DNA of 54,107 bases, taken from the IMG/VR virus record IMGVR_UViG_3300005617_000340, positions 1 to 54,107 of that record, one strand, 5' to 3'. Source of the stretch: a virus. Every line of letters begins with the position of its first letter. Position 1 is the first letter of the stretch. Shown one piece after another: positions 11,862 through 25,069 of the stretch. Below the pieces are notes generated by a model that was not told the DNA's origin, ran no database searches, and worked only from the letters and a program-made list of their open reading frames with translations. Position numbers and translations under genes: made by a program.

Positions 11862-12401
11862 TTAAGGCTGTTTAAGATACGTGAAAATCACGATCAGTGT
11901 TGCTATCAACCCAATTCCAGCAATGAGATAACCCCAACCAGAATTGAGGCCGGCGCCTCGCCCTTGCTGTAAAGATATCGCCGCCGCAATCGGCGCCAGA
12001 GTCGCTTCGAGTTTCTCTACAGCGGCTTTAAGATCATCCTTAGTTGCATATAATCCTCGCTCGCTGTTGATTTGTTCGCGAAGCTCGTTCGCTTTTTCGT
12101 CTTTATAAATCTGAATCTGACGAGCAAGATCCAGAGCATCTCGATCAGCTTGCTCTTTAATCTTCAGAGCTTTTTCACGCTCTTGTGCTATTTCATAATA
12201 TCTGCGATCTCTTTCTCCGTGCGTTAAAGCTCGTTCAGCAGCGATATCAGCATATCTGCGATCTCTTTCCTGAAGGATCGCTACATTCATTTCTCTCATC
12301 AGACTGATAGCTAGTAAATCGTCTTCACGTAATCGCCTAAAATGCTCATGAAGAGTATCTACAGTCCATCCACTGACCTGCTTTTCAGTTTCTCCTGACA
12401 T
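11862..12401 (-). CDS. Coiled-coil protein with C-terminal membrane anchor
   Basis: 179 residues from MSGETEKQ, chosen because TGGAGAT precedes that ATG. A longer start at 12440 overlaps the upstream gene. Central coiled coil with repeated ERDRRYADI / ERDRRYYEI units, then a C-terminal transmembrane helix (GWGYLIAGIGLIATLIVIF). A common phage architecture next to holin genes. Could be a spanin-like or tail accessory protein. Confidence 0.65.
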   Translation of the reverse strand: MSGETEKQVSGWTVDTLHEHFRRLREDDLLAISLMREMNVAILQERDRRYADIAAERALTHGERDRRYYEIAQEREKALKIKEQADRDALDLARQIQIYKDEKANELREQINSERGLYATKDDLKAAVEKLEATLAPIAAAISLQQGRGAGLNSGWGYLIAGIGLIATLIVIFTYLKQP

Positions 12402-12439
12402 ATCTCCATCTAAATGGTAACAGGAGAAAACGAACGGCA

Positions 12440-13039
12440 TTATGAAATGGCGATGTCAGACTGAATTTCACTCCCCCATGTATCCCATCCTGGGGTCTTA
12501 GGCCAAAGCGGATGGACAGGACGAGCAAACATCTCAAGACGGCGGGCTTCGGGATACATAATCTCTATGCGTTTTCGAACTTCATCCGGCTTGCGGCTGT
12601 GTTCCATTCTCTTATGAAAAATCACAGAAGGCGTCAACGAAAGAGCCGGCTTCATCGAACCTTTCACACCAAGCAGAACGAGCTCTAAATTACTTCCGGT
12701 GTAATATCCAGGGCCGGCAATCGGTTTGCCCTTCTTATCCAGTTTAGTCCAAGAAAACGCCACAGTTGAATAGCGGAAACCGCACGCTCGGAGAAATTCC
12801 AAAGCGAAATCCAACCTCGGACAGGTAGCCCATAAAAATAGAGCGGAGTTTTCAGCAGAGATGCTATGGACCCAAGGCGCCAATGCAAGAATTTCGTCAT
12901 CCTTCATTGTTGGATAGCGCCGACTGGTGCCGCCACCGAAATAGCTGCGGCAGTTCGTCTTCCATTTTCCATTTGGTTGTGGTTTCCGATCTCCGTAGTA
13001 CCACGGAGGATCAGAAAGGATCACATCGTATTGGGGCAT
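12440..13039 (-). CDS. MT-A70-family adenine N6-methyltransferase
   Basis: 199 residues from MPQYDVILSDPPWYY. DPPW is the catalytic motif of this family. The LFLWATCPRLDFALEFL, SNLELVLLG and PLWPKTPGWDTWG segments follow in the usual MT-A70 order. It methylates adenine in DNA (or RNA), most likely phage DNA, to block host restriction. It lies in the structural operon, not beside a nuclease, so no complete restriction system is present here. Confidence 0.9.
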   Translation of the reverse strand: MPQYDVILSDPPWYYGDRKPQPNGKWKTNCRSYFGGGTSRRYPTMKDDEILALAPWVHSISAENSALFLWATCPRLDFALEFLRACGFRYSTVAFSWTKLDKKGKPIAGPGYYTGSNLELVLLGVKGSMKPALSLTPSVIFHKRMEHSRKPDEVRKRIEIMYPEARRLEMFARPVHPLWPKTPGWDTWGSEIQSDIAIS

Positions 13040-14590: not shown

Positions 14591-14711
14591 AAATCCAGAT
14601 CAGATCAGAAAGTAGGGGGCGAATTCAAACCGCTTTGGAGCATCGGCTCCTGAGTTTTTTGATAATTGAATACGCCCTTATATTTTCGCGTCCTACTTTT
14701 ACTGGACGCAT

Positions 14712-17063: not shown

Positions 17064-17737
17064 AGATTCACGGAGGGAAGAAAGATTATTGGGATACGGC
17101 GTTAGGTTACGGCGTAGATCCTACTCTTCATTACAACCGCAAAGAAAAAGAACTGGATTACGGAAATCTTAAGGCCGCGCTTCCTACGGAACTAACCCGG
17201 TTTCTCGATCACAATGCTGGTTGGGGTTCCTGGCACCGCAATATAGTAGATCGATTCGTAATAGGATTCTGTGGTCGAATCTTTCCTTGCATCTACGTTG
17301 AAAGAGCACTATTCGCTCGTGGACCATTAGAGATTCATTATCTCTACGATGCTGAAAACGCCATACAAGTTTTGGATCTCAAAGATCTAGATCATTCTTC
17401 ATGGTTCCGGAGACACTGGCGAGGAATGGATCCCCTTAAAGCAAAAGAATTCTATTCCTTTACCAACAGCGTCCATGACGAGATCTTCGCTGAAATCAAC
17501 GCTCCAATCTTCACTCTCAAGACTAAGAATGGTCGAGATCACATAATCTCAACCAATCCTAATCTTAAAGAATTGCAGTTCTATAAGATTGTGGATAGCT
17601 TCACAGCATTTCAAGAGATTGCGATGTATCTTAGCAATCAGTTGGTCCGTAGAGATAAGCCTGATGAAATTGCTGATAAGTACAAGATAAGTCAGCACGG
17701 ATTCGATCCAACTTACAGCTTTAGGAAACGACCATGA
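17060..17737 (+). CDS. Conserved phage hypothetical protein (225 aa)
   Basis: 225 residues, MKIHGGKKDYWDTALGYGVD... It has no signal or membrane segment and is rich in aromatic residues (FRRHWRGMDPLKAKEFYSF). I recall similar proteins in other large phages but no function. Coupled by overlap to the HNH gene before it and the gene after it. Confidence 0.8.
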   Translation: MKIHGGKKDYWDTALGYGVDPTLHYNRKEKELDYGNLKAALPTELTRFLDHNAGWGSWHRNIVDRFVIGFCGRIFPCIYVERALFARGPLEIHYLYDAENAIQVLDLKDLDHSSWFRRHWRGMDPLKAKEFYSFTNSVHDEIFAEINAPIFTLKTKNGRDHIISTNPNLKELQFYKIVDSFTAFQEIAMYLSNQLVRRDKPDEIADKYKISQHGFDPTYSFRKRP

Positions 17738-17973
17738 ATTATCTTATGCCGGATGATCTCGCTACTTTCACGCCCATCGACTGGCTTAAACAGGAAACTG
17801 TTTACTGTATCACCTGTAATGGAACTGCTGATGTTTTCCAGCCGCTCTATGAGCAATGCGGTGTGACCTTCACAAGAGAATGGAAAGCCGGCGAAGAATG
17901 GCTTGTCTTATGCCCAGGCAACAATCCGAACAAAGTAAAAAAAGTATCGAACAACAAAGTTGAGCATGTTTAG
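17734..17973 (+). CDS. Hypothetical protein (79 aa)
   Basis: 79 residues, MNYLMPDDLATFTPIDWLK... Contains CITC and two more Cys that could bind zinc. Its TAG stop shares its last base with the first base of tRNA-Cys. Confidence 0.7.
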   Translation: MNYLMPDDLATFTPIDWLKQETVYCITCNGTADVFQPLYEQCGVTFTREWKAGEEWLVLCPGNNPNKVKKVSNNKVEHV

Positions 17974-18128: not shown

Positions 18129-18344
18129 ATGAATGACAATGACGATGATTGCCCGAATTGTGGGAAGTCTCAGATCGAGACTCGAACAGAAACACAGACT
18201 GTGCAGTATAAATGCACGATTCTAAACATAGACATTCCGGTAAGGAAATGTTTGGACTGCAACTTCGAATACACAGATCACGAAGCAGAAGATCTGATAG
18301 ACACAGCCATCAGAGAATGGCGGTTCTATCATGAAAATAAGTAA
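18129..18344 (+). CDS. YgiT-like zinc-finger protein
   Basis: 71 residues, MNDNDDDCPNCGK..., with CPNCG and CLDC pairs ~30 residues apart, then FEYTDHEAEDLIDTA, the pattern of small YgiT-type antitoxin zinc fingers. No toxin partner is adjacent. The ATG lies three bases after a tRNA with no clear ribosome site, so initiation is weak or occurs after tRNA processing. Stop overlaps the next start. Confidence 0.7.
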   Translation: MNDNDDDCPNCGKSQIETRTETQTVQYKCTILNIDIPVRKCLDCNFEYTDHEAEDLIDTAIREWRFYHENK

Positions 18345-18607
18345 TGGCAGTTTACGTCGATCACGGTCGAATAGCTTTTCGTGGAATGCTGATGTGTCAC
18401 ATGGTCGCTGACACATTAGAAGAACTTCACGAGATGGCAGACAAGATAGGACTGAAGAGAACGTGGTTTCAGCCCTACAGCAGCCCTCACTACGATATTA
18501 GTCAGAGCAAACGAAGTCTTGCTGTAGCTGAGGGAGCAATAGAAATTGATATGAGGCAACTCGCCCGGTTACTTCGAAAGTGGCGAGAACAAAAGATGGG
18601 GTCGTAG
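18344..18607 (+). CDS. DUF4031 family protein
   Basis: 87 residues, MAVYVDHGRIAFRGMLMCHM..., matching DUF4031: an N-terminal VYVD, ADTLEELHEMADKIGLK, WFQ..PHYDIS and KRSLAVAEGAIEID. Function unknown; widespread in phages and actinobacteria. Its TAG stop is bases 8-10 of tRNA-Glu(TTC). Confidence 0.88.
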   Translation: MAVYVDHGRIAFRGMLMCHMVADTLEELHEMADKIGLKRTWFQPYSSPHYDISQSKRSLAVAEGAIEIDMRQLARLLRKWREQKMGS

Positions 18608-18671
18608 ACGAATTGGTTAAGTCACTTGACTTTCACTCAAGAGATTGCGGGTTCGAACCCCGTCGACCCTA
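18598..18671 (+). tRNA. tRNA-Glu(TTC)
   Basis: Acceptor GGGGTCG/CGACCCT, anticodon stem CTTGA/TCAAG with loop CTTTCAC. Overlaps the last 10 bases of the DUF4031 gene, whose stop codon it contains. A73. Confidence 0.92.
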
Positions 18672-18676
18672 ATAAA

Positions 18677-18910
18677 ATGGCGAAGAAACTTTACAGTCTG
18701 GATGTCCGCGGTAAGCAACACGAATGGGGATTTCACATCTACGCCGATCCAAAGCACGTCGAAGACTGGCGCGCGGACGGATTGGAAGTATATGAGATCT
18801 GTAATGTCGTTCCTGTGTGGATTGTTGATATGGGATTACTTCGAGTCTGGTGTTTCTTTCAGGACATATTCCATTTCAAGAATCCATTTGAATCGAAAGA
18901 TGAAGATTGA
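18677..18910 (+). CDS. Hypothetical protein (77 aa)
   Basis: 77 residues, MAKKLYSLDVRGKQHEWGFHI..., beta-rich N-terminus with DPKHVEDWRADGLEVYEI, then a hydrophobic VVPVWIVDMGLLRVWCFF segment that may be a single membrane helix. Stop two bases before tRNA-His. Confidence 0.75.
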   Translation: MAKKLYSLDVRGKQHEWGFHIYADPKHVEDWRADGLEVYEICNVVPVWIVDMGLLRVWCFFQDIFHFKNPFESKDED

Positions 18911-18911
18911 T

Positions 18912-18984
18912 GGCGGCCGAGGCCGATAGGTGAGGCGCAAGGCTGTGGACCTTGTTGTAGAGAGTTCGAGTCTCTCCGGTCGCC
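18912..18984 (+). tRNA. tRNA-His(GTG)
   Basis: Acceptor GCGGCCG/CGGTCGC with an encoded extra G-1 opposite C73, the His identity pair. Anticodon stem CAAGG/CCTTG with loop CTGTGGA. Confidence 0.92.
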
Positions 18985-18986
18985 CT

Positions 18987-19250
18987 ATGAGACTAGATGA
19001 AATTTTCCGGGATGGTGTAGCTGGCAACACGCGTGGCTCTGGCCCACGAGCCGAGAGTTCGATCCTCTCTCCCGGGGCTTTACCCGCATCAAGGTATGGG
19101 TGTAATAAATGTAAGAACACATTCAGTCTGCCCATACCAAAATCGGTTCGGTGCAAACGGTGTGGAAGTAATTACCTGACCTGGATCAACAGCGAAGAAG
19201 TTCTTGAATACATCAGAACAAATGATCCAGACTTCAAGGACAGACAATGA
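18987..19250 (+). CDS. Putative zinc-ribbon protein overlapping tRNA-Gln
   Basis: The C-terminal ~55 residues (YGCNKCKNTFSLPIPKS, CKRCGSNYLTW) form a convincing zinc ribbon with two CxxC pairs. The only in-frame ATG after the previous tRNA is at 18987, which makes the N-terminus run through tRNA-Gln on the same strand, without a ribosome site. An undetected non-AUG start near 19080 is equally possible. Confidence 0.5.
   Translation: MRLDEIFRDGVAGNTRGSGPRAESSILSPGALPASRYGCNKCKNTFSLPIPKSVRCKRCGSNYLTWINSEEVLEYIRTNDPDFKDRQ
19006..19077 (+). tRNA. tRNA-Gln(CTG)
   Basis: Acceptor TCCGGGA/TCCCGGG, anticodon stem CGTGG/CCACG with loop CTCTGGC, T arm GAGAG-TTCGATC-CTCTC, G73. Confidence 0.9.
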
Positions 19251-19459
19251 GCGACGAAGAGATAGATCGATTAAAGAAAGCCGTTACAGAAGGAAACGTT
19301 CATTGCGTCGGATGTGGTCGAGTACGCAAGATAGCGTTTGTAGGAGCGCATCCAGATGAACCAGCAGAAGTAGCTTGGCTGGAAGGCCCACTGAACGGTG
19401 ATTACGTTTCACTCTACAATTGCGAGCTATCTGATTTTGTCAGAACATCAGCTATTTAA
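19247..19459 (+). CDS. Hypothetical protein (70 aa)
   Basis: 70 residues, MSDEEIDRLKKAVTEGNVHC..., with CVGCGRVRK that could be half of a zinc site and a third Cys later. Start overlaps the preceding stop (ATGA). No known family. Confidence 0.7.
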   Translation: MSDEEIDRLKKAVTEGNVHCVGCGRVRKIAFVGAHPDEPAEVAWLEGPLNGDYVSLYNCELSDFVRTSAI

Positions 19460-19463
19460 TTAT

Positions 19464-19536
19464 GCCGGCTTGGTGTAACTGGTAACACGCCCGCCCGATT
19501 AGCGGGATAGTCGGGGTTCAAATCCTCGAGCCGGTA
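19464..19536 (+). tRNA. tRNA-Ile(GAT) with C33
   Basis: Acceptor GCCGGCT/AGCCGGT, anticodon stem CCCGC/GCGGG with loop CCGATTA: anticodon GAT but position 33 is C instead of the near-universal U. T loop TTCAAAT, A73. Confidence 0.8.
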
Positions 19537-19540
19537 CTTT

Positions 19541-19614
19541 GGCGTTGTAGGCAAACTGGCTAAGCCGCCTGCTTCTCAAGCAGGAGATCGCGGGTTCGAA
19601 TCCCGTCAACGCCA
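19541..19614 (+). tRNA. tRNA-Glu(CTC)
   Basis: Acceptor GGCGTTG/CAACGCC, anticodon stem CCTGC/GCAGG with loop TTCTCAA, T loop TTCGAAT, A73. Confidence 0.92.
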
Positions 19615-19616
19615 TT

Positions 19617-19691
19617 GGGGTATTGGGGGAGTCTGGAGTCCCCGCTTCCCTGTCACGGAAGAGATCACGGGTTCAAATCCCGTATGCCCCG
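19617..19691 (+). tRNA. tRNA-Asp(GTC)
   Basis: Acceptor GGGGTAT/ATGCCCC, anticodon stem CTTCC/GGAAG with loop CTGTCAC, T loop TTCAAAT, G73. Confidence 0.92.
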
Positions 19692-19696
19692 CTTTT

Positions 19697-19770
19697 GGCC
19701 CCGTAGCTCAGTTGGACAGAGCAGACGGCTTCTATCCGTACGGTCGGGGGTTCGAATCCTCCCGGGGTCA
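19697..19770 (+). tRNA. tRNA-Arg(TCT)
   Basis: Acceptor GGCCCCG/CGGGGTC, anticodon loop CTTCTAT, T loop TTCGAAT, A73. The outer anticodon-stem pair is G-A. Confidence 0.9.
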
Positions 19771-19773
19771 TAC

Positions 19774-19845
19774 GCGTCCAAAGCTTTGCAGGCGAAGCAC
19801 AGGTCTCTTAAACCTGGGAGCAGAGTTCGATCCTCTGTGGACGCA
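19774..19845 (+). tRNA. tRNA-Lys(CTT)
   Basis: Acceptor GCGTCCA/TGGACGC, anticodon stem CAGGT/ACCTG with loop CTCTTAA, T loop TTCGATC, A73. Confidence 0.92.
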
Positions 19846-19863
19846 TTGAAGATCGGAGATAAA

Positions 19864-20223
19864 ATGGCAACAGCAGATATTTCTGTGCGCTCTTTTCAAA
19901 CAGTGATTGTAGATAATCAGCGGTTCATGACGGCTGGACAATTCGGCACGATCACTTCGACAATACCAAATTTATCTCAGGCGCCGGCACCGAGAGTACC
20001 ATCCAGACCGCCCGGTGTCTATCCTGGCAGCGCTCTTTCTCAGAAAGAATGGGATAAGATTCTTGCCGACGAGAGAGAAGCCGCATTGAAAGAATTGATC
20101 GCTGAAGCCGAGAAGCAAATAGCCGATGCTAAAGCAGAGTTGGCAGCTAAACAAGAAGCAGACGAACCAATGATCGTCGGTGGACGTAAAGTTAGATTCC
20201 TGGCAGAAGAAAATGACATGTGA
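19864..20223 (+). CDS. Hypothetical coiled-coil protein (119 aa)
   Basis: 119 residues from MATADISVRSFQTVIVDNQ with GGAGAT upstream. An N-terminal beta part, a Pro-rich linker (APAPRVPSRPPG), then a helical coiled coil (DEREAALKELIAEAEKQIAD, KAELAAKQEAD). No known family. The next small gene starts inside its last codons. Confidence 0.72.
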   Translation: MATADISVRSFQTVIVDNQRFMTAGQFGTITSTIPNLSQAPAPRVPSRPPGVYPGSALSQKEWDKILADEREAALKELIAEAEKQIADAKAELAAKQEADEPMIVGGRKVRFLAEENDM

Positions 20224-20332
20224 GTGTGGTAGATTGCTTCCTGAGAGCGGGCACGTATGGCATTGTCCATGCGGTGCTCTCTGGCTTCGGCCGGATTGTT
20301 CTGAATCTTGTGAAGGATGGAGGAAGCTCTAA
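20213..20332 (+). CDS. Small Cys-rich protein (39 aa)
   Basis: MTCECGRLLPESGHVWHCPCG..., 39 residues with CEC, CPC and two further Cys, a probable zinc knuckle. Overlaps the gene before (ATGA-like) and its TAA overlaps the next ATG (TAATG), which supports it as a coupled gene. Confidence 0.55.
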   Translation: MTCECGRLLPESGHVWHCPCGALWLRPDCSESCEGWRKL

Positions 20333-20733
20333 TGCCTAGATATGGCTACTGCATCGGCCCCGATACCTACAAGTTCGACACGCAGTTCGGATCTGTCATT
20401 TGGAGTAATGGAGATGTACAGATCATCATCAACAAAGACAAAGCCAGACTGGACATCACTAAGACATTATATTGGAACAACGCAGGCTTAAACAGCAAAC
20501 AGTCTCTACATACTTGCATTACGATTATCGATCTTGTTCCGCCAAAGCCCGGTATCTTTGACGTGTATCCACAGGATCGAATCAAGCTATTTCATGATCC
20601 AGAAAAGACACAATTGACATTCAAAGACGAGACAGAGCAAAGTGTGACCCTCCATTACACGTGGAAACCCAATCGCGGAGCAATCGACATTGGGAGAATT
20701 CCGCATCCTGGGGAAATTCGAATAGGAGCTTAA
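20332..20733 (+). CDS. Hypothetical protein (133 aa)
   Basis: 133 residues from MPRYGYCIGPDTYKFDTQFG. The ATG overlaps the upstream TAA. Predominantly beta, two Cys, no membrane segment. No recognised domain. Followed by the DUF5662 gene 11 bases later. Confidence 0.7.
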   Translation: MPRYGYCIGPDTYKFDTQFGSVIWSNGDVQIIINKDKARLDITKTLYWNNAGLNSKQSLHTCITIIDLVPPKPGIFDVYPQDRIKLFHDPEKTQLTFKDETEQSVTLHYTWKPNRGAIDIGRIPHPGEIRIGA

Positions 20734-20744
20734 CGTACAGATAC

Positions 20745-21263
20745 ATGTCAGATGAGATAGCCCTGCGACCCGAAGCTCGCAGGAAAACAGATGAAAGAGT
20801 CAAAACCCTCAGACACATCGAAGCCGTCAGGAATTACATCAATCTCTGTATCAGAGAGTTGCTTTACAGAGCAGAACGGCACGATCAAACAAAGCTGGAG
20901 TCTCCCGAAGTCGAAATGTTCGACGTCTGGACTGACAAGCTGCGCAACTCAACCTACAATTCGCCCGAGTACCTGGAGTTCAGACAAAAGCTAAAGCCGG
21001 TTCTTGATCATCACTACGCACATAATCGGCATCACCCTGAACACTTCAAGCACGGAATTCAGGATATGACGCTGATTGATCTCGTAGAAATGATCATGGA
21101 CTGGAAAGCTTCCAGCATGAGACACAACGACGGCAACATTCTAAAGAGCATCGCAATCAATCAAGAACGATTTGAATACTCTGACGAATTGCGCCGCATC
21201 TTTGAGAACACCGCAAAGTGGTTCGACTCTCAGGATGTGTTTCACAAGGCCAACGAAAGTTAA
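20745..21263 (+). CDS. DUF5662 family protein
   Basis: 172 residues from MSDEIALRPEARRKTD. Signature elements: ERHDQTKLESPEVEMFDVWT, LKPVLDHHYAHNRHHPEHF, IDLVEMIMDWKASSMRHNDG and KSIAINQERFEYSDEL. The many His and Asp residues suggest a metal-dependent HD-like fold. The family is common in phages and bacteria but uncharacterised. Confidence 0.9.
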   Translation: MSDEIALRPEARRKTDERVKTLRHIEAVRNYINLCIRELLYRAERHDQTKLESPEVEMFDVWTDKLRNSTYNSPEYLEFRQKLKPVLDHHYAHNRHHPEHFKHGIQDMTLIDLVEMIMDWKASSMRHNDGNILKSIAINQERFEYSDELRRIFENTAKWFDSQDVFHKANES

Positions 21264-21268
21264 GTTAT

Positions 21269-21335
21269 GGGCGGGGTGGCTGGCGTTGTAGTTCCAACTG
21301 CGGCGCTCATACTAGTTAGTCGCCCTCGACCCTCC
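21269..21335 (+). ncRNA. Structured spacer RNA d
   Basis: About 67 bases with GTTG/CAAC and GGCG/CGCC inner hairpins and an outer GGGT/ACCC pairing. The 5' part GGGGTGGCTGGCGTTG resembles spacer RNA c (16513). Six bases before tRNA-Met. Confidence 0.35.
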
Positions 21336-21340
21336 AATAC

Positions 21341-21413
21341 GGTCCTGTAGCTCAGTGGTAGCAGCGAACGGCTCATAACCGTGGGGTCGCACGTTCGATC
21401 CGTGCCAGGACCA
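21341..21413 (+). tRNA. tRNA-Met(CAT) 1
   Basis: Acceptor GGTCCTG/CAGGACC, anticodon loop CTCATAA, T arm GCACG-TTCGATC-CGTGC, A73. It lacks the GGG/CCC anticodon stem of initiators, so elongator Met or lysidine-modified Ile. Confidence 0.9.
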
Positions 21414-21416
21414 AAT

Positions 21417-21488
21417 GGGATCGAAGCTTTGACGGTGAAGCATCGCCCTTTTAAGGCGAGGAAGAGGGTTCAAGTCCCTACGGTCCCA
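21417..21488 (+). tRNA. tRNA-Lys(TTT)
   Basis: Acceptor GGGATCG/CGGTCCC, anticodon stem TCGCC/GGCGA with loop CTTTTAA, T loop TTCAAGT, A73. Confidence 0.92.
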
Positions 21489-21496
21489 ATATTTTT

Positions 21497-21676
21497 ATGA
21501 AAAGACTCACCAAGTATCACATCCCTTGTTTACTGGCAGAGATCGACCGGTGGAAAATGAGGCGAGCCATTCAAATGGTGCCTTGGAAATACTTCTACGA
21601 AATCGCCAGAAACCAAGTTTCTCGCCCACGTAGCTCAGTTGGTGGAAGCACCGCCTTGGTAAGGCGGCGGTCGTGA
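21497..21676 (+). CDS. Possible small basic protein running into tRNA-Thr
   Basis: 59 codons, MKRLTKYHIPCLLAEIDRWK..., the last ~16 of them inside the tRNA-Thr gene. No ribosome site. The first 43 residues look protein-like and no other gene fills the gap. Weakly supported. Confidence 0.35.
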   Translation: MKRLTKYHIPCLLAEIDRWKMRRAIQMVPWKYFYEIARNQVSRPRSSVGGSTALVRRRS

Positions 21677-21697
21677 GTTCGAATCTCACCGTGGGCC
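21624..21697 (+). tRNA. tRNA-Thr(GGT)
   Basis: Acceptor GCCCACG/CGTGGGC, anticodon stem CCGCC/GGCGG with loop TTGGTAA, T loop TTCGAAT. Confidence 0.93.
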
Positions 21698-21701
21698 TTT
21701 C

Positions 21702-21774
21702 GGCAACGTAGCTCAGTTGGCAGAGCACACGTCTCATAAGCGTGCCGTCGCGAGTTCGAATCTCGCCGTTGCCA
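21702..21774 (+). tRNA. tRNA-Met(CAT) 2
   Basis: Acceptor GGCAACG/CGTTGCC, anticodon stem CACGT/GCGTG with loop CTCATAA, A73. Body differs from the first Met tRNA, so one may be a lysidine-type Ile tRNA for AUA. Confidence 0.9.
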
Positions 21775-21786
21775 TTCGAGGATGCT

Positions 21787-22032
21787 ATGAAAGAAGTTGA
21801 AAACAAACACGCAAAAGAGATATTCGAAAAACGCAAACAGATCGATCTTCTACACCAGGAAATAAACGACATTGCAAAATCTGTCCTGCCAGATTTTCAT
21901 TTCTTGGACTACAAAGTATCGACGTTCTGGTCTTGCGAAAAGAGTCCTATAGGCGTTTGTGTGTTTCATTTGAATCAGTGGGGACATACAACCGAATGCC
22001 GCTTTTGCGGAGATCCAGAGGAACGAAAATGA
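21787..22032 (+). CDS. Hypothetical protein with CxxC (81 aa)
   Basis: 81 residues from MKEVENKHAKEIFEKRKQID. Helical N-terminus, then FWSCEKSPIGVCVFHL and HTTECRFCGD, a four-Cys set that may bind zinc. The ATG follows tRNA-Met by 12 bases. Overlaps the next gene (ATGA). Confidence 0.68.
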   Translation: MKEVENKHAKEIFEKRKQIDLLHQEINDIAKSVLPDFHFLDYKVSTFWSCEKSPIGVCVFHLNQWGHTTECRFCGDPEERK

Positions 22033-22244
22033 AAAACGGAGCTAGCTTTCGAATCGTAGATCTGAATTCCAACAAGAAATGGGACGTCGAAGTAATTCAA
22101 GGTCGGCGCCAGCACCGCACAGAATACGGCGAGTCGATCGACAACCACTGTGACGGCGCAATCAGCGAGAGCGAATCACAAATCAGTGAAGAGACGCACT
22201 CGAACATTCGGTACGTAAGGAATCCATCTGATATTTCCCGGTAG
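22029..22244 (+). CDS. Hypothetical protein (71 aa), stop inside tRNA-Asn
   Basis: 71 residues from MKNGASFRIVDLNSNKKWDV. Polar, beta-like start then an acidic Ser/Glu-rich tail. The TAG stop (22242-22244) is bases 8-10 of tRNA-Asn. Confidence 0.65.
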   Translation: MKNGASFRIVDLNSNKKWDVEVIQGRRQHRTEYGESIDNHCDGAISESESQISEETHSNIRYVRNPSDISR

Positions 22245-22307
22245 CTCAGTTGGTAGAGCGCGCGGCTGTTAACCGCGATGTCGCAGGTTCGACCCCTGCC
22301 CGGGGAG
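22235..22307 (+). tRNA. tRNA-Asn(GTT) 1
   Basis: Acceptor TTCCCGG/CCGGGGA, anticodon stem CGCGG/CCGCG with loop CTGTTAA, T arm GCAGG-TTCGACC-CCTGC, G73. Contains the stop codon of the preceding gene. Confidence 0.92.
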
Positions 22308-22310
22308 CAT

Positions 22311-22383
22311 TGTAGGGTCGTTTAATTGGCAAGACGCTTGATTGTTAATCAAGTTATTGGGGGTTCGAGTCCCTCCCCTACAG
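22311..22383 (+). tRNA. tRNA-Asn(GTT) 2
   Basis: Acceptor TGTAGGG/CCCTACA, anticodon stem CTTGA/TCAAG with loop TTGTTAA, T loop TTCGAGT, G73. A second, clearly non-identical Asn tRNA. Confidence 0.92.
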
Positions 22384-22392
22384 CCATCTAGT

Positions 22393-22470
22393 GACACCGG
22401 AGTAATGGGTTGCCAACCCCATCGGTTTGATCAACCGTAGTTTCAATATGAGGCTTAAAACACCGGGGTC
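22393..22470 (+). ncRNA. Structured spacer RNA e
   Basis: Outer stem GACACCGG/CCGGGGTC (one mismatch) enclosing two hairpins: GGGTTG/CAACCC-like at 22407 and CGGTT-TGATC-AACCG at 22432. Multibranched 78-base RNA between tRNA-Asn and tRNA-Pro. Confidence 0.45.
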
Positions 22471-22479
22471 CAGTTCTAT

Positions 22480-22554
22480 CTGGAAGTACGATAGCCAGGT
22501 CAATCGGCATGTTTCGGGAACATGAAATCGTGGGTTCGAATCCCACCTTCCAGA
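22480..22554 (+). tRNA. tRNA-Pro(CGG)
   Basis: Acceptor CTGGAAG/CTTCCAG, anticodon stem CATGT/ACATG with loop TTCGGGA, T arm GTGGG-TTCGAAT-CCCAC, A73. Confidence 0.92.
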
Positions 22555-22564
22555 CTTTCTGTAT

Positions 22565-22637
22565 CGGAGTGTAGCCTAGAGGCTCAGGCACTCGGTTTGG
22601 GGCCGAGATCACGCAGGTTCGAATCCTGCCACTCCGA
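22565..22637 (+). tRNA. tRNA-Pro(TGG)
   Basis: Acceptor CGGAGTG/CACTCCG, anticodon stem CTCGG/CCGAG with loop TTTGGGG, A73. Confidence 0.92.
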
Positions 22638-22639
22638 CT

Positions 22640-22891
22640 ATGCCTAAAGAAGAAACAATCAATCTAGATCTCTACCAGTCCACAGCAATCAGACCAGGAG
22701 TCTATCGACACTACAAAGGCAATCACTATCGAGTGATTGGCGAAGTAGTCTTGGACGGACCTAGAACACCAATGGTTCTGTATATTCCTCTCTATGGAAA
22801 AGGTGAACCAACAGTGCGTGATAAAGCAGAGTTCTTGTCGTTGATTGGTGAAGCAGATCAAGTGAGACGTTTTGAATTTGTACACGATTGA
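22640..22891 (+). CDS. DUF1653 family protein
   Basis: 83 residues, MPKEETINLDLYQ..., with RPGVYRHYKGNHYRVIGEVV, VLYIPLYG and a closing RRFEFVHD as in DUF1653, a small beta protein of unknown role found in many bacteria and phages. Starts two bases after tRNA-Pro and stops right at the start of tRNA-Ala. Confidence 0.88.
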   Translation: MPKEETINLDLYQSTAIRPGVYRHYKGNHYRVIGEVVLDGPRTPMVLYIPLYGKGEPTVRDKAEFLSLIGEADQVRRFEFVHD

Positions 22892-22965
22892 GGGTCCGTA
22901 GCTCTAACTGGCAGAGCGCTGGTTTTGCACTCCAGAGGATGTGAGTTCGAATCTCACCGGATCCA
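22892..22965 (+). tRNA. tRNA-Ala(TGC)
   Basis: Acceptor GGGTCCG/CGGATCC, anticodon loop TTTGCAC (closing pair T-T), T arm GTGAG-TTCGAAT-CTCAC, A73. Confidence 0.9.
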
Positions 22966-22968
22966 TTT

Positions 22969-23041
22969 GGGGCCTTAATGTTAATTGGCAGCATGTCAGT
23001 GTCGCATACTGAATGTATGGGTTCAAATCCCATAGGTTCCA
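22969..23041 (+). tRNA. tRNA-Ala(CGC)
   Basis: Acceptor GGGGCCT/AGGTTCC, anticodon stem TCAGT/ACTGA with loop GTCGCAT, T loop TTCAAAT, A73. Divergent D arm. Confidence 0.82.
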
Positions 23042-23055
23042 TTCTTCTCTTGCTT

Positions 23056-23077
23056 TGTTGTATCGCCTATGATACAA
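23056..23077 (+). promoter_or_regulatory. Putative operator, perfect dyad (copy B)
   Basis: GTTGTATC and GATACAAC flank gcctat, an 8-bp perfect inverted repeat just before the gene at 23085. Shares TCGCCTATGA with the copy at 14327. Confidence 0.45.
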
Positions 23078-23084
23078 CCGCCCT

Positions 23085-23411
23085 ATGAACGATTTGATTT
23101 ACAAGGGCATTGTCTTTGGTGTGAAAGGCAAGAACAGAGCCGTAGCGCCCAACGATCTCGTAGAATTAGTCGTTGGGAATGTCCTAGCTGAAATCCCAGG
23201 AATACAAGTCAGACAAGTAAAGATTCATCCAGATGGAAGTCTGGAAGCTTGGGGAGAATTAGCTCGGAAGCACCCGAGAGGCAAACCATTTGTTGAATCT
23301 GCTCTTGAGGAAATACGACTGATTCTTGATGGCGCCGGCTTCATCGTATCGGCAATAGACGCCGACATAGATGATGTCGAGTTAGATAGAGGCCCAACAG
23401 CGTTGGATTAG
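23085..23411 (+). CDS. Hypothetical protein (108 aa)
   Basis: 108 residues, MNDLIYKGIVFGVKGKNRAV..., alternating beta and helix (LARKHPRGKPFVESALEEIRLIL, AIDADIDDVELD). No known motif. Preceded by the dyad at 23056 and followed four bases later by tRNA-Arg(CCT). Confidence 0.72.
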   Translation: MNDLIYKGIVFGVKGKNRAVAPNDLVELVVGNVLAEIPGIQVRQVKIHPDGSLEAWGELARKHPRGKPFVESALEEIRLILDGAGFIVSAIDADIDDVELDRGPTALD

Positions 23412-23414
23412 ATC

Positions 23415-23488
23415 GGGGGTGTAACTCAAATGGACAGAGTACAGGTTTCCTAAACCTGCTGTTGCGGGTTCGAGTCCCGCCATCCCCT
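23415..23488 (+). tRNA. tRNA-Arg(CCT)
   Basis: Acceptor GGGGGTG/CATCCCC, anticodon stem CAGGT/ACCTG with loop TTCCTAA, T loop TTCGAGT, U73. Confidence 0.92.
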
Positions 23489-23506
23489 TAACATTGAAGC
23501 CCGGGT

Positions 23507-23606
23507 GCTGGTCTAATCCTTTGAAAGTAGGATTCGGGAGGAACGATTAGCAGGGGCCGGCTAGCTGCTAGTCGCTGGCTAAGAAGGAACCCCTTAGCGG
23601 ACCAGC
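23507..23606 (+). ncRNA. Structured spacer RNA f
   Basis: 100 bases closed by GCTGGTC/GACCAGC with at least two inner hairpins: AATCCT/AGGATT (23515-23535) and GCTAAG/CTTAGC (around 23578-23597). Located between tRNA-Arg and a small gene. Unknown class. Confidence 0.5.
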
Positions 23607-23615
23607 TTGAACATT

Positions 23616-23753
23616 ATGGAAAAGCAAATCTGTGAAGTCTGTAACGAAGAGATCGGACCAAAAGAATTCCTATGCGGCTGTGAAAGATGCGCCCGCCTGT
23701 TTGGTCCGTGCTGCAATACAGAATCAGACAACTACTGTGTTGATTGCGCGTGA
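23616..23753 (+). CDS. Small zinc-finger-like protein (45 aa)
   Basis: MEKQICEVCNEEIGPKEFLC..., 45 residues with nine Cys in CxxC-like pairs (CEVC, CGCERC, CC, CVDC), a compact binuclear zinc finger. Starts 10 bases after structured RNA f. Confidence 0.62.
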   Translation: MEKQICEVCNEEIGPKEFLCGCERCARLFGPCCNTESDNYCVDCA

Positions 23754-23760
23754 GGACAGA

Positions 23761-23958
23761 ATGAAAGAATTCACAATAAGATTGAAAATCAACGATTTGA
23801 TTATTCCGATATCAGTCAAGGGAGAGTGCATTTCAATAGAAGAAGGCAATCTCTTGGTCATCGCGAATAACGAACTTATATGGGCGGCTGCTCCTGGTCA
23901 TTGGGCGACGTTTGCAGAAGAGTCGACTGCCCATCCAGCAGCCGAGATAGAAAGTTAA
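23761..23958 (+). CDS. Small hypothetical protein (65 aa)
   Basis: 65 residues from MKEFTIRLKINDLIIPISVK with GAGG upstream. Beta-rich (GECISIEEGNLLVIANNEL). The stop overlaps, tail to tail, the stop of the leftward gene at 23955. Confidence 0.65.
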   Translation: MKEFTIRLKINDLIIPISVKGECISIEEGNLLVIANNELIWAAAPGHWATFAEESTAHPAAEIES

Positions 23959-24113
23959 TCGGGAAGAACGGCCCCGGTGACAGGATCCCGGTTGAGATAG
24001 AAAGTTGCCTTGCCTTCCAGATCAATGAAAGCAATCCAACTCATATCTTCCGGTTCAATCCAGCCAGCCCAATGATCGTTCTGCGAATAGCGGCCGACTT
24101 TGATGTTCTGCAT
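23955..24113 (-). CDS. Small leftward protein (52 aa)
   Basis: MQNIKVGRYSQNDHWAGWIE..., 52 residues ending DPVTGAVLPD on the minus strand within an otherwise rightward block. The phrases WIEPEDMSWIAFID and TFYLNRD resemble small phage proteins I recall, which makes it credible despite a weak ribosome site. Confidence 0.6.
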   Translation of the reverse strand: MQNIKVGRYSQNDHWAGWIEPEDMSWIAFIDLEGKATFYLNRDPVTGAVLPD

Positions 24114-24127
24114 GGAGGTAGCCTATC

Positions 24128-24322
24128 ATGATCGCTCAAAAGGCAAAAGCAGGTTATCTCATTCTCTGTATCATAGGTGGCTGCTTGATGATTGGCATGA
24201 CTTTAATAGCCGCCTTTTTCAGGATCGAGAGTGTCCTTATCAAGATTATTCTTTCCGCAATTATAGTGATTGGTTGTGCTTGTTTCGCAATAGGATTTTA
24301 CAAACAAAATATGGTTGGGTAG
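24128..24322 (+). CDS. Two-helix membrane protein, stop inside tRNA-Phe
   Basis: 64 residues with two transmembrane helices (GYLILCIIGGCLMIGMTLIA and IILSAIIVIGCACFAIGF). Its TAG stop (24320-24322) is bases 8-10 of tRNA-Phe. Function unknown. Confidence 0.7.
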   Translation: MIAQKAKAGYLILCIIGGCLMIGMTLIAAFFRIESVLIKIILSAIIVIGCACFAIGFYKQNMVG

Positions 24323-24389
24323 CTCATTTTGGAAGAGCGCTGGTCTGAAAAACCAGAGGTGGCGAGTTCGAATCTCGCTCCAACCACCA
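24313..24389 (+). tRNA. tRNA-Phe(GAA), CCA encoded
   Basis: Acceptor GGTTGGG/TCCAACC, anticodon stem CTGGT/ACCAG with loop CTGAAAA, A73 followed by an encoded CCA. Overlaps the end of the preceding gene. Confidence 0.93.
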
Positions 24390-24408: not shown

Positions 24409-25069
24409 ATGGAAACAGCAGTCATTGAAGTGCGAGCGGCAGAGGGCGGTGACGACGCCAAGCTGCTTGTAACCGACCAAATCAGAGCCTATATGTATGC
24501 CGCGCAGCGGAGGCATCTTTAGGGTTGAGCTCATAGACGAACGGCCAGGATTTGCAGCATTGACGCTCGAAGGCCCTAAAGCCTATGAGATATTCAAACA
24601 AGAAGCAGGCGGGCACCGATGGCAAAGAATTCCTCCAACTGAAAAACGTGGCAGAGTCCAGACGTCAACCGTCACAGTAGCGATCTTTGAAATCAAAGAT
24701 AGTAAGAATCCTGATTTAACGGACATCGAGATCCGAACGACCCGCGGTACTGGTCCAGGAGGGCAGCATAAGAACACAACAGAAAGTTGTGTGATTGCAA
24801 CCCACCGTCCAACCGGACTACAAGCCAGAGCAGATATGCGCTCTCAACATCAAAGCAAAGCGATGGCACTGAAGATCCTGACTGCCAAACTCTTAGACAG
24901 AGACAAGCAGATAACACAGGAGACGCAAGCAGCCGATCGACGAAAGCAGGTTGGAAGCGGAATGCGTGGTGATAAAATCAGGACATACAGCAGCCGGCAC
25001 AATCATGTGGTGGATCATCGCACAGGAAAGCGCTGGAAACTAAACGCCTGGATACGCGGAGAATGGTAA
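24409..25069 (+). CDS. Short RF1-like peptide chain release factor, made by +1 frameshift at CUU UAG
   Basis: Strong ribosome site (ACGGAGG) then METAVIEVRAAEGGDDAKLL, matching the EIRAGxGGDEA region of RF1/RF2. Frame 0 stops at UAG 24520-24522 right after CUU 24517-24519. The +1 frame continues RVELIDERPGFAALTL... to 25069, giving a 219-residue protein. It has GGHRWQRIPPTEKRGRVQTS (P-x-T as in RF1, not SPF as in RF2) and GPGGQHKNTTES (GGQ peptidyl-release motif), then a basic C-terminus. The N-terminal RF domain 1 is absent. The junction carries GGAGG, three bases, CUU, stop, as in bacterial prfB. Expected to release peptides at UAG/UAA and to sense its own activity at the UAG. Domain-1-less relatives (RF-H/ICT1 type) act in ribosome rescue, which is an alternative role. 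Confidence 0.9.
24508..24522 (+). promoter_or_regulatory. Programmed +1 frameshift site
   Basis: CGGAGG (internal Shine-Dalgarno) followed by CAU, then CUU and UAG. Spacing from the Shine-Dalgarno to the slippery CUU equals that in E. coli prfB, where the stop is UGA. Skipping the U of UAG puts ribosomes in the downstream frame. Confidence 0.85.

Follow-up and report, generated by a model that had tools for sequence, protein, structure and literature searches.

A UAG-interrupted gene for an RF1-type release factor and gene ends inside tRNAs in the tRNA array of a virus

The window analyzed here, which is the whole 54,107-base stretch of a virus record, carries 39 transfer RNA (tRNA) genes detected by ARAGORN, all on one strand, and between positions 14711 and 29656 small genes are interspersed among these 39 tRNAs. 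Within this array, three genes end at a TAG inside the tRNA that follows them and, downstream of the third, a gene for a release factor of the RF1 type is broken by an in-frame TAG at a site resembling the +1 frameshift site of prfB, the gene for RF2. We consider it probable that these are two separate things, namely the packing of stops in a tRNA array and a prfB-type +1 frameshift at UAG that would make an RF1-type factor. The release-factor gene comprises the following features:

24409–24522, plus strand: 5′ part of the release-factor gene, 37 codons, closing at the in-frame TAG at 24520–24522 (PCRF match, 4.9e-4)
24509–24513, plus strand: Shine-Dalgarno (SD)-like GGAGG with a 3-nucleotide spacer to the shift codon
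24517–24522, plus strand: predicted slip site CTT TAG (+1, CUU to UUU)
24521–25069, plus strand: +1-frame part of the release factor, with the PxT-type motif PPT, GGQ and a TAA stop

The protein starts with the ATG at 24409 (METAVIEVRAAEGGDD...), whereas the open reading frame (ORF) of a gene finder would begin at 24497. Release-factor homology resumes in the +1 frame after the TAG at 24520–24522; the sequence around the break reads CGGAGG CAT CTT TAG G, and one slip at CTT-T would yield a joined protein, P0001, of 219 residues. RF2 is the textbook example of a self-regulating release factor. As in its cassette, a CUU codon stands right before the stop (24517–24519) and an SD-like element lies a few nucleotides upstream (GGAGG, 3-nucleotide spacer), but in place of a UGA read by the encoded RF2 the window has a UAG and an RF1-type product. 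The likeness to prfB, as this gene is described in the available portions of PMC5009743 and PMC12421855, covers the SD-like element, the short spacer, the CUU slip codon, the stop and the short dead-end peptide; the window departs from it in having an RF1-type factor that lacks domain 1, a shift placed at codon 38 within domain 2, and UAG as the stop. This arrangement agrees with the view of an earlier note on this DNA that an RF1-like factor senses UAG, which it appears to do in a more literal sense than the note stated, by means of a +1 frameshift at a UAG within its own coding sequence (24409–25069). Folding of the three gene–tRNA junctions (z −1.65, 0.44 and −0.87) and of this shift region (z −0.14) gave nothing beyond shuffled sequences, and we therefore claim no downstream stimulator at the shift site.

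The joined protein aligns to RF1 chains of the PDB across the junction (residues 3–206, 1.3e-42), and its profile scores place RF1 above RF2 and PrfH. It is nevertheless far below the RF1 equivalog cut-offs of NCBIfam (199.2 against 400, and 196.6 against 423.25) because domain 1 is absent, the match to RF1 beginning at profile position 106 of 347. The recognition tripeptide is PxT in RF1 and SPF in RF2, and P0001 has a PPT loop together with GGQ. An AlphaFold2 model of P0001 has a mean predicted local distance difference test score of 89.3 (one model); the junction falls between the helix 14–34 and the strand 38–45 of the model, and its best PDB matches are ribosome-bound RF1. The joined protein is predicted to fold as an RF1 lacking domain 1, which, along with the frameshift gate, is what sets it apart from prfA-encoded RF1. 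The lack of domain 1 is shared with PrfH (RFH), but the PrfH profile (TIGR03072) gave only 90.4 against a cut-off of 166.65. Moreover, in the available part of PMC1586002, where the SPF, SXY and RFH loops are described, RFH has an SXY loop with a gap, in contrast to the PPT of the window.

Genomes of relatives point in the same direction. In Nannocystis exedens and Minicystis there are five places with an RF-1 domain per genome, the family gene being one of them. Of the other four, two long frames (357–414 amino acids) would be RF1 and RF2 by their size, the neighbor of RtcB would be PrfH by its position, and a frame of 144–165 amino acids would be ArfB by its size. The family gene is distant from the RF-1-domain gene adjoining RtcB; no RtcB match lies close to it in Minicystis or in either of two Nannocystis genomes, the search covering these relatives only. 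With five distinct RF-1-domain places in these genomes, the family represents a separate kind of class-I factor, apart from RF1, RF2 and PrfH.

A search with the release-factor protein alone found no relative, and an alignment-based search succeeded. Two profile searches of IMG/VR supplied the best 80 of 271 and the best 80 of 265 relatives, to which a genome scan of bacteria and archaea added 51, leaving 156 non-redundant records after removal of duplicates; the shares given below refer to this sample. In the first IMG/VR set 78 of the 80 loci were parsed by rule, while L097 and L098, inspected by eye, stand outside the pool (the contig of L098 enters as L119); L231 may duplicate L206, and L227, from the genome scan, resembles a piece of an ordinary prfB. 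The 156 records comprise 108 with a +1 break, 33 with an in-frame UGA, 13 without an internal stop and two unparsed. CTT precedes the stop at all 108 break sites, which lie mostly at one protein position and have UGA (81), UAG (25) or UAA (2) as the stop. The SD-like 5-mer ends exactly 3 nucleotides before CTT in 70 of the 108, and an anti-SD match of at least 4 occurs at 34 of 41 distinct sites as compared to 26% of control positions. Among isolates, the break is found in Minicystis rosea (UGA, complete genome), Pyxidicoccus fallax DSM 14698 (UAG) and Nannocystis (UGA); hence, it is not an assembly error. That the frame break of the window might stem from gene decay or faulty sequencing is suggested by its nature, a one-base shift in a metagenomic contig, and by the want of a very close relative in the protein-alone search; with CTT-stop breaks in 108 of 156 records, isolates included, and both the C-terminal domain and GGQ conserved (the latter in 159 of 160 rows), we give this explanation hardly any credence. 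Of the 80 loci in the first IMG/VR set, 46 have at least one tRNA next to the gene, as compared with only three of the 28 bacterial loci examined out of the 51. A shortened recognition loop without PxT is seen in L013 (LR745208.1; P0002), L036, L138, L147 and L154, and the shift is retained in L013, L138, L147 and L154.

As for the records with an in-frame UGA, one clade of 13 rows (L077, L058, L063, L087 and others) has a single UGA at the position of a Trp of the host RF1, close to the slip site of other members. UGA readthrough instead of a frameshift is a fair guess for this clade. Since the contigs are fragments, UGA recoding may be the explanation in some; however, the stop usage of several of them does not look recoded. 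The long ORFs of L046 and L049 have 1 TGA against 25 and 39 TGG, L031 looks mixed (72 TGA and 59 TGG), and no tRNA with the anticodon UCA, CUA or UUA was found in the contigs of UGA members, which are fragments only. Additionally, the huge phages L015–L018 have release factors with PPT loops and one or two in-frame UGAs aligned to Trp, and here, too, recoding may be involved.

Turning to the tRNA-embedded stops, the relevant features of the window are:

18344–18607, plus strand: DUF4031 gene, with its final codons and TAG stop (18605–18607) within tRNA-Glu (from the stop position and Pfam PF13223)
18598–18672, plus strand: tRNA-Glu(ttc), bases 8–10 TAG (ARAGORN 18597–18672, register by acceptor pairing)
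22029–22244, plus strand: gene of unknown function, ATGA-coupled to the preceding gene, with its TAG stop within tRNA-Asn
22235–22308, plus strand: tRNA-Asn(gtt), bases 8–10 TAG (ARAGORN)
24128–24322, plus strand: gene for a small hydrophobic, probably membrane, protein, with its TAG stop within tRNA-Phe
24313–24389, plus strand: tRNA-Phe(gaa), bases 8–10 TAG (ARAGORN)
17734–17973, plus strand: gene with a TAG stop, the G of which is base 1 of tRNA-Cys
21497–21676, plus strand: ORF entering tRNA-Thr(ggt), with its stop at tRNA base 51

The three stops lie at tRNA bases 8–10 (18605–18607, 22242–22244 and 24320–24322), just where the earlier note had placed them, and its start of tRNA-Glu also agrees with ours: ARAGORN begins this tRNA at 18597, and with an acceptor stem of 7 bases its base 1 falls on 18598. 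The three genes look real. The DUF4031 protein matches PF13223 at 2e-27, an ATGA overlap links the start of the 22029 ORF to the preceding gene, and GGAGG is found 5′ of the start of the 24128 gene. Family searches with the 22029 and 24128 genes gave no convincing match, and tblastn found none among the loci fetched for the junction comparison. The protein tails contributed by the tRNAs are short, namely Gly-Ser, (Ile)-Ser-Arg and Val-Gly. The ORF at 21497–21676 overlaps tRNA-Thr by 53 nucleotides, deeper than these three junctions. Some tRNAs of the window, such as tRNA-Phe, have an encoded CCA at their end, and others, such as tRNA-Glu, are without it; a DUF5662 protein (Pfam, 1.2e-32) is also encoded within the array at 20748–21263. 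A search of phages for closely similar DNA found no relative of the window.

Base 8 of tRNAs is nearly always U, and bases 9 and 10 are mostly purines. The tRNAs of the window and its relatives conform to this: in a sample of the window and 48 tRNA-bearing loci, which holds 677 distinct tRNAs and 209 distinct gene-to-tRNA junctions and into whose counts the T4 and KVP40 stretches did not enter, TAG is the commonest triplet at bases 8–10 (281 of 677), and it occupies these bases in 17 of the 39 tRNAs of the window. Under a null of random frames, the first stop would fall at 8–10, at base 8 or 9, in 354 of 2031 tRNA–frame pairs (17%, or 28% of the pairs stopping within the tRNA), with no stop in 786. 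Of the 209 junctions, 161 have the stop before the tRNA, one straddles its start, 19 stop at 8–10 and 28 elsewhere within it. With 19 of the 47 in-tRNA stops, bases 8–10 are slightly above the 28% that the frame null predicts (p=0.05), a small surplus that would fit if short overlaps were the best tolerated. These 19 use TAG 14 times, TGA three times and TAA twice; this shows no preference for UAG over the 84% that the tRNAs themselves supply (p=0.22). In the window, TAG ends 10 of the 37 long ORFs. Taken alone, the tRNA-embedded stops amount to ordinary tight packing. Genes of a compact array would extend up to, and at times into, the next tRNA, and one entering in the matching frame would end at bases 8–10, as these are often U-A-G, with the UAG supplied by the tRNA rather than selected. 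Mitochondrial tRNA punctuation offers a parallel, in that a complete stop can sit within the downstream tRNA; the available text of PMC2220002 interprets the nearby stop as a guard against unprocessed transcripts. The window differs in being phage DNA with standard stops, where stops completed by polyadenylation would not be expected.

The earlier note had gone on to join these stops to the release factor. Its geometry stands as far as the coordinates go: an RNase P cut at tRNA base 1 would sever the stop from the gene, and the RNase P site would be covered by a ribosome that terminates at bases 8–10. A regulated device could be built from this, with RNase P cuts creating non-stop mRNAs, terminating ribosomes shielding the site, and the UAG-sensing release factor tuning the balance. 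In its favor are the geometry at the three junctions, the presence of a UAG-gated release factor in the same array, the slight surplus at 8–10, and the tRNA 5′ ends lying within genes, which makes shared transcripts likely. A promoter scan of the window, which does not bear on separate promoters, gave 14 promoter-like sites against 17.0 in shuffles. However, the stops are not UAG-specific, and phages with a UAG-gated factor have no surplus of them: 8–10 stops occur at five of their 39 junctions, as compared to eight of 114 in UGA-gated phages (p=0.32) and 15 of 170 at all other loci (p=0.54). The five include the tRNA-Phe case of the window, added by hand as the junction rule, which picks the longest ORF, had missed it. 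Nor is there any sign of a conserved device, since the relatives of the DUF4031 gene are without a tRNA at the gene end in all 10 fetched loci, where they have ordinary stops and variable tails; the sole tRNA in these loci is at 13347 of L006, ~3 kb from the gene. Further, ARAGORN found no transfer-messenger RNA (tmRNA) in the window. The coupling is not supported, and we consider the regulated device very improbable. One of the phage contigs with a DUF4031 relative, L010, has a tmRNA gene at 12165–12518 with the tag GATPLALAA.

On the reading we prefer, the release-factor gene would act apart from these stops. Ribosomes would arrive at CTT-TAG after 37 codons with the upstream GGAGG paired to 16S ribosomal RNA; quick termination at UAG would release a dead 37-residue peptide, while slow termination would let the CUU peptidyl-tRNA slip to UUU, giving the full RF1-type factor of 219 amino acids. 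The gene should then report and restore the capacity for UAG termination, and with a UAG gate and an RF1-type product predicted to read UAG, the loop would close on itself. By the same logic, UGA-gated forms with a PPT loop would report RF2.

Several points weigh against this reading. The frameshift, the codon specificity of the factor and its autoregulation are deduced from the structure of the gene, its conservation, its homology and the predicted fold. Most relatives are UGA-gated (81 of 108), and an RF1-type factor with PPT is not expected to read UGA; the tripeptide is alike in both types, with PPT in 15 of 26 UAG-type and 58 of 83 UGA-type rows (the tripeptide and GGQ counts come from an earlier pool with a few duplicates). 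Autoregulation, therefore, cannot be a family-wide rule, and the UGA gate on PPT factors is the most puzzling point. The nearest relatives of the window protein in the tree are themselves UGA-type, the SD-like 5-mer is absent from 27 of the 108 sites, and the base after the window UAG is G, as against C in 22 of 25 UAG sites. For the packing half of the reading, the mild excess over the frame null noted above counts likewise. Alternatively, a genuine shift may respond not to the activity of the factor itself but to termination at large, or to host RF2 where the gate is UGA, and the UAG of the window may be a neutral stop swap. In line with this, UGA and UAG are exchanged repeatedly on the tree of 68 proteins with the recognition motif unchanged (the 10 rows with the TAG label require 10 changes, of which starred branches force at least four), and another 33 records carry an in-frame UGA in place of the shift. 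Conversely, where the gate is UAG, an RF1-type product with the predicted specificity would read the gate codon itself and the gene would be self-sensing; we hold the neutral-swap explanation to be less likely than not.

With regard to precedents, the available text of PMC12421855 reports that TAG was absent across 8,164 genomes and that prfA gave no convincing case of a programmed shift, and that of PMC5009743, on in-frame readthrough, describes a UAG/RF1 counterpart as unknown. In the accessible parts of the huge-phage papers PMC7162821, PMC6784885 and PMC10746230, phage RF1 and RF2 are mentioned with no frameshift, and every CUU-stop shift in the RECODE set of PRFect is prfB, going by the available part of PMC10885494. 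Our literature search found no account of a frameshift or readthrough of this kind in a phage release factor or in a third one, with most subscription papers and preprints lying outside its coverage.

The attribution of the embedded stops mostly to packing removes a false lead, and the release factor next to them is the part deserving a second look. If an RF1-type family of phages and myxobacteria has the same cassette at a different place in the protein, the device either arose more than once or has moved. We tentatively entertain the possibility that the stop-gated class-I family of tRNA-rich phages and myxobacteria is a sensor of termination capacity, its gate toggling between UGA and UAG, with an in-frame UGA in other members, and that the UAG form of the window is self-regulated and has the genes with tRNA-embedded UAGs among its substrates. 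An RF1-type family with this cassette would allow one to test why gating is required by some factors, and also suggests that tRNA-rich phages may control termination besides elongation.

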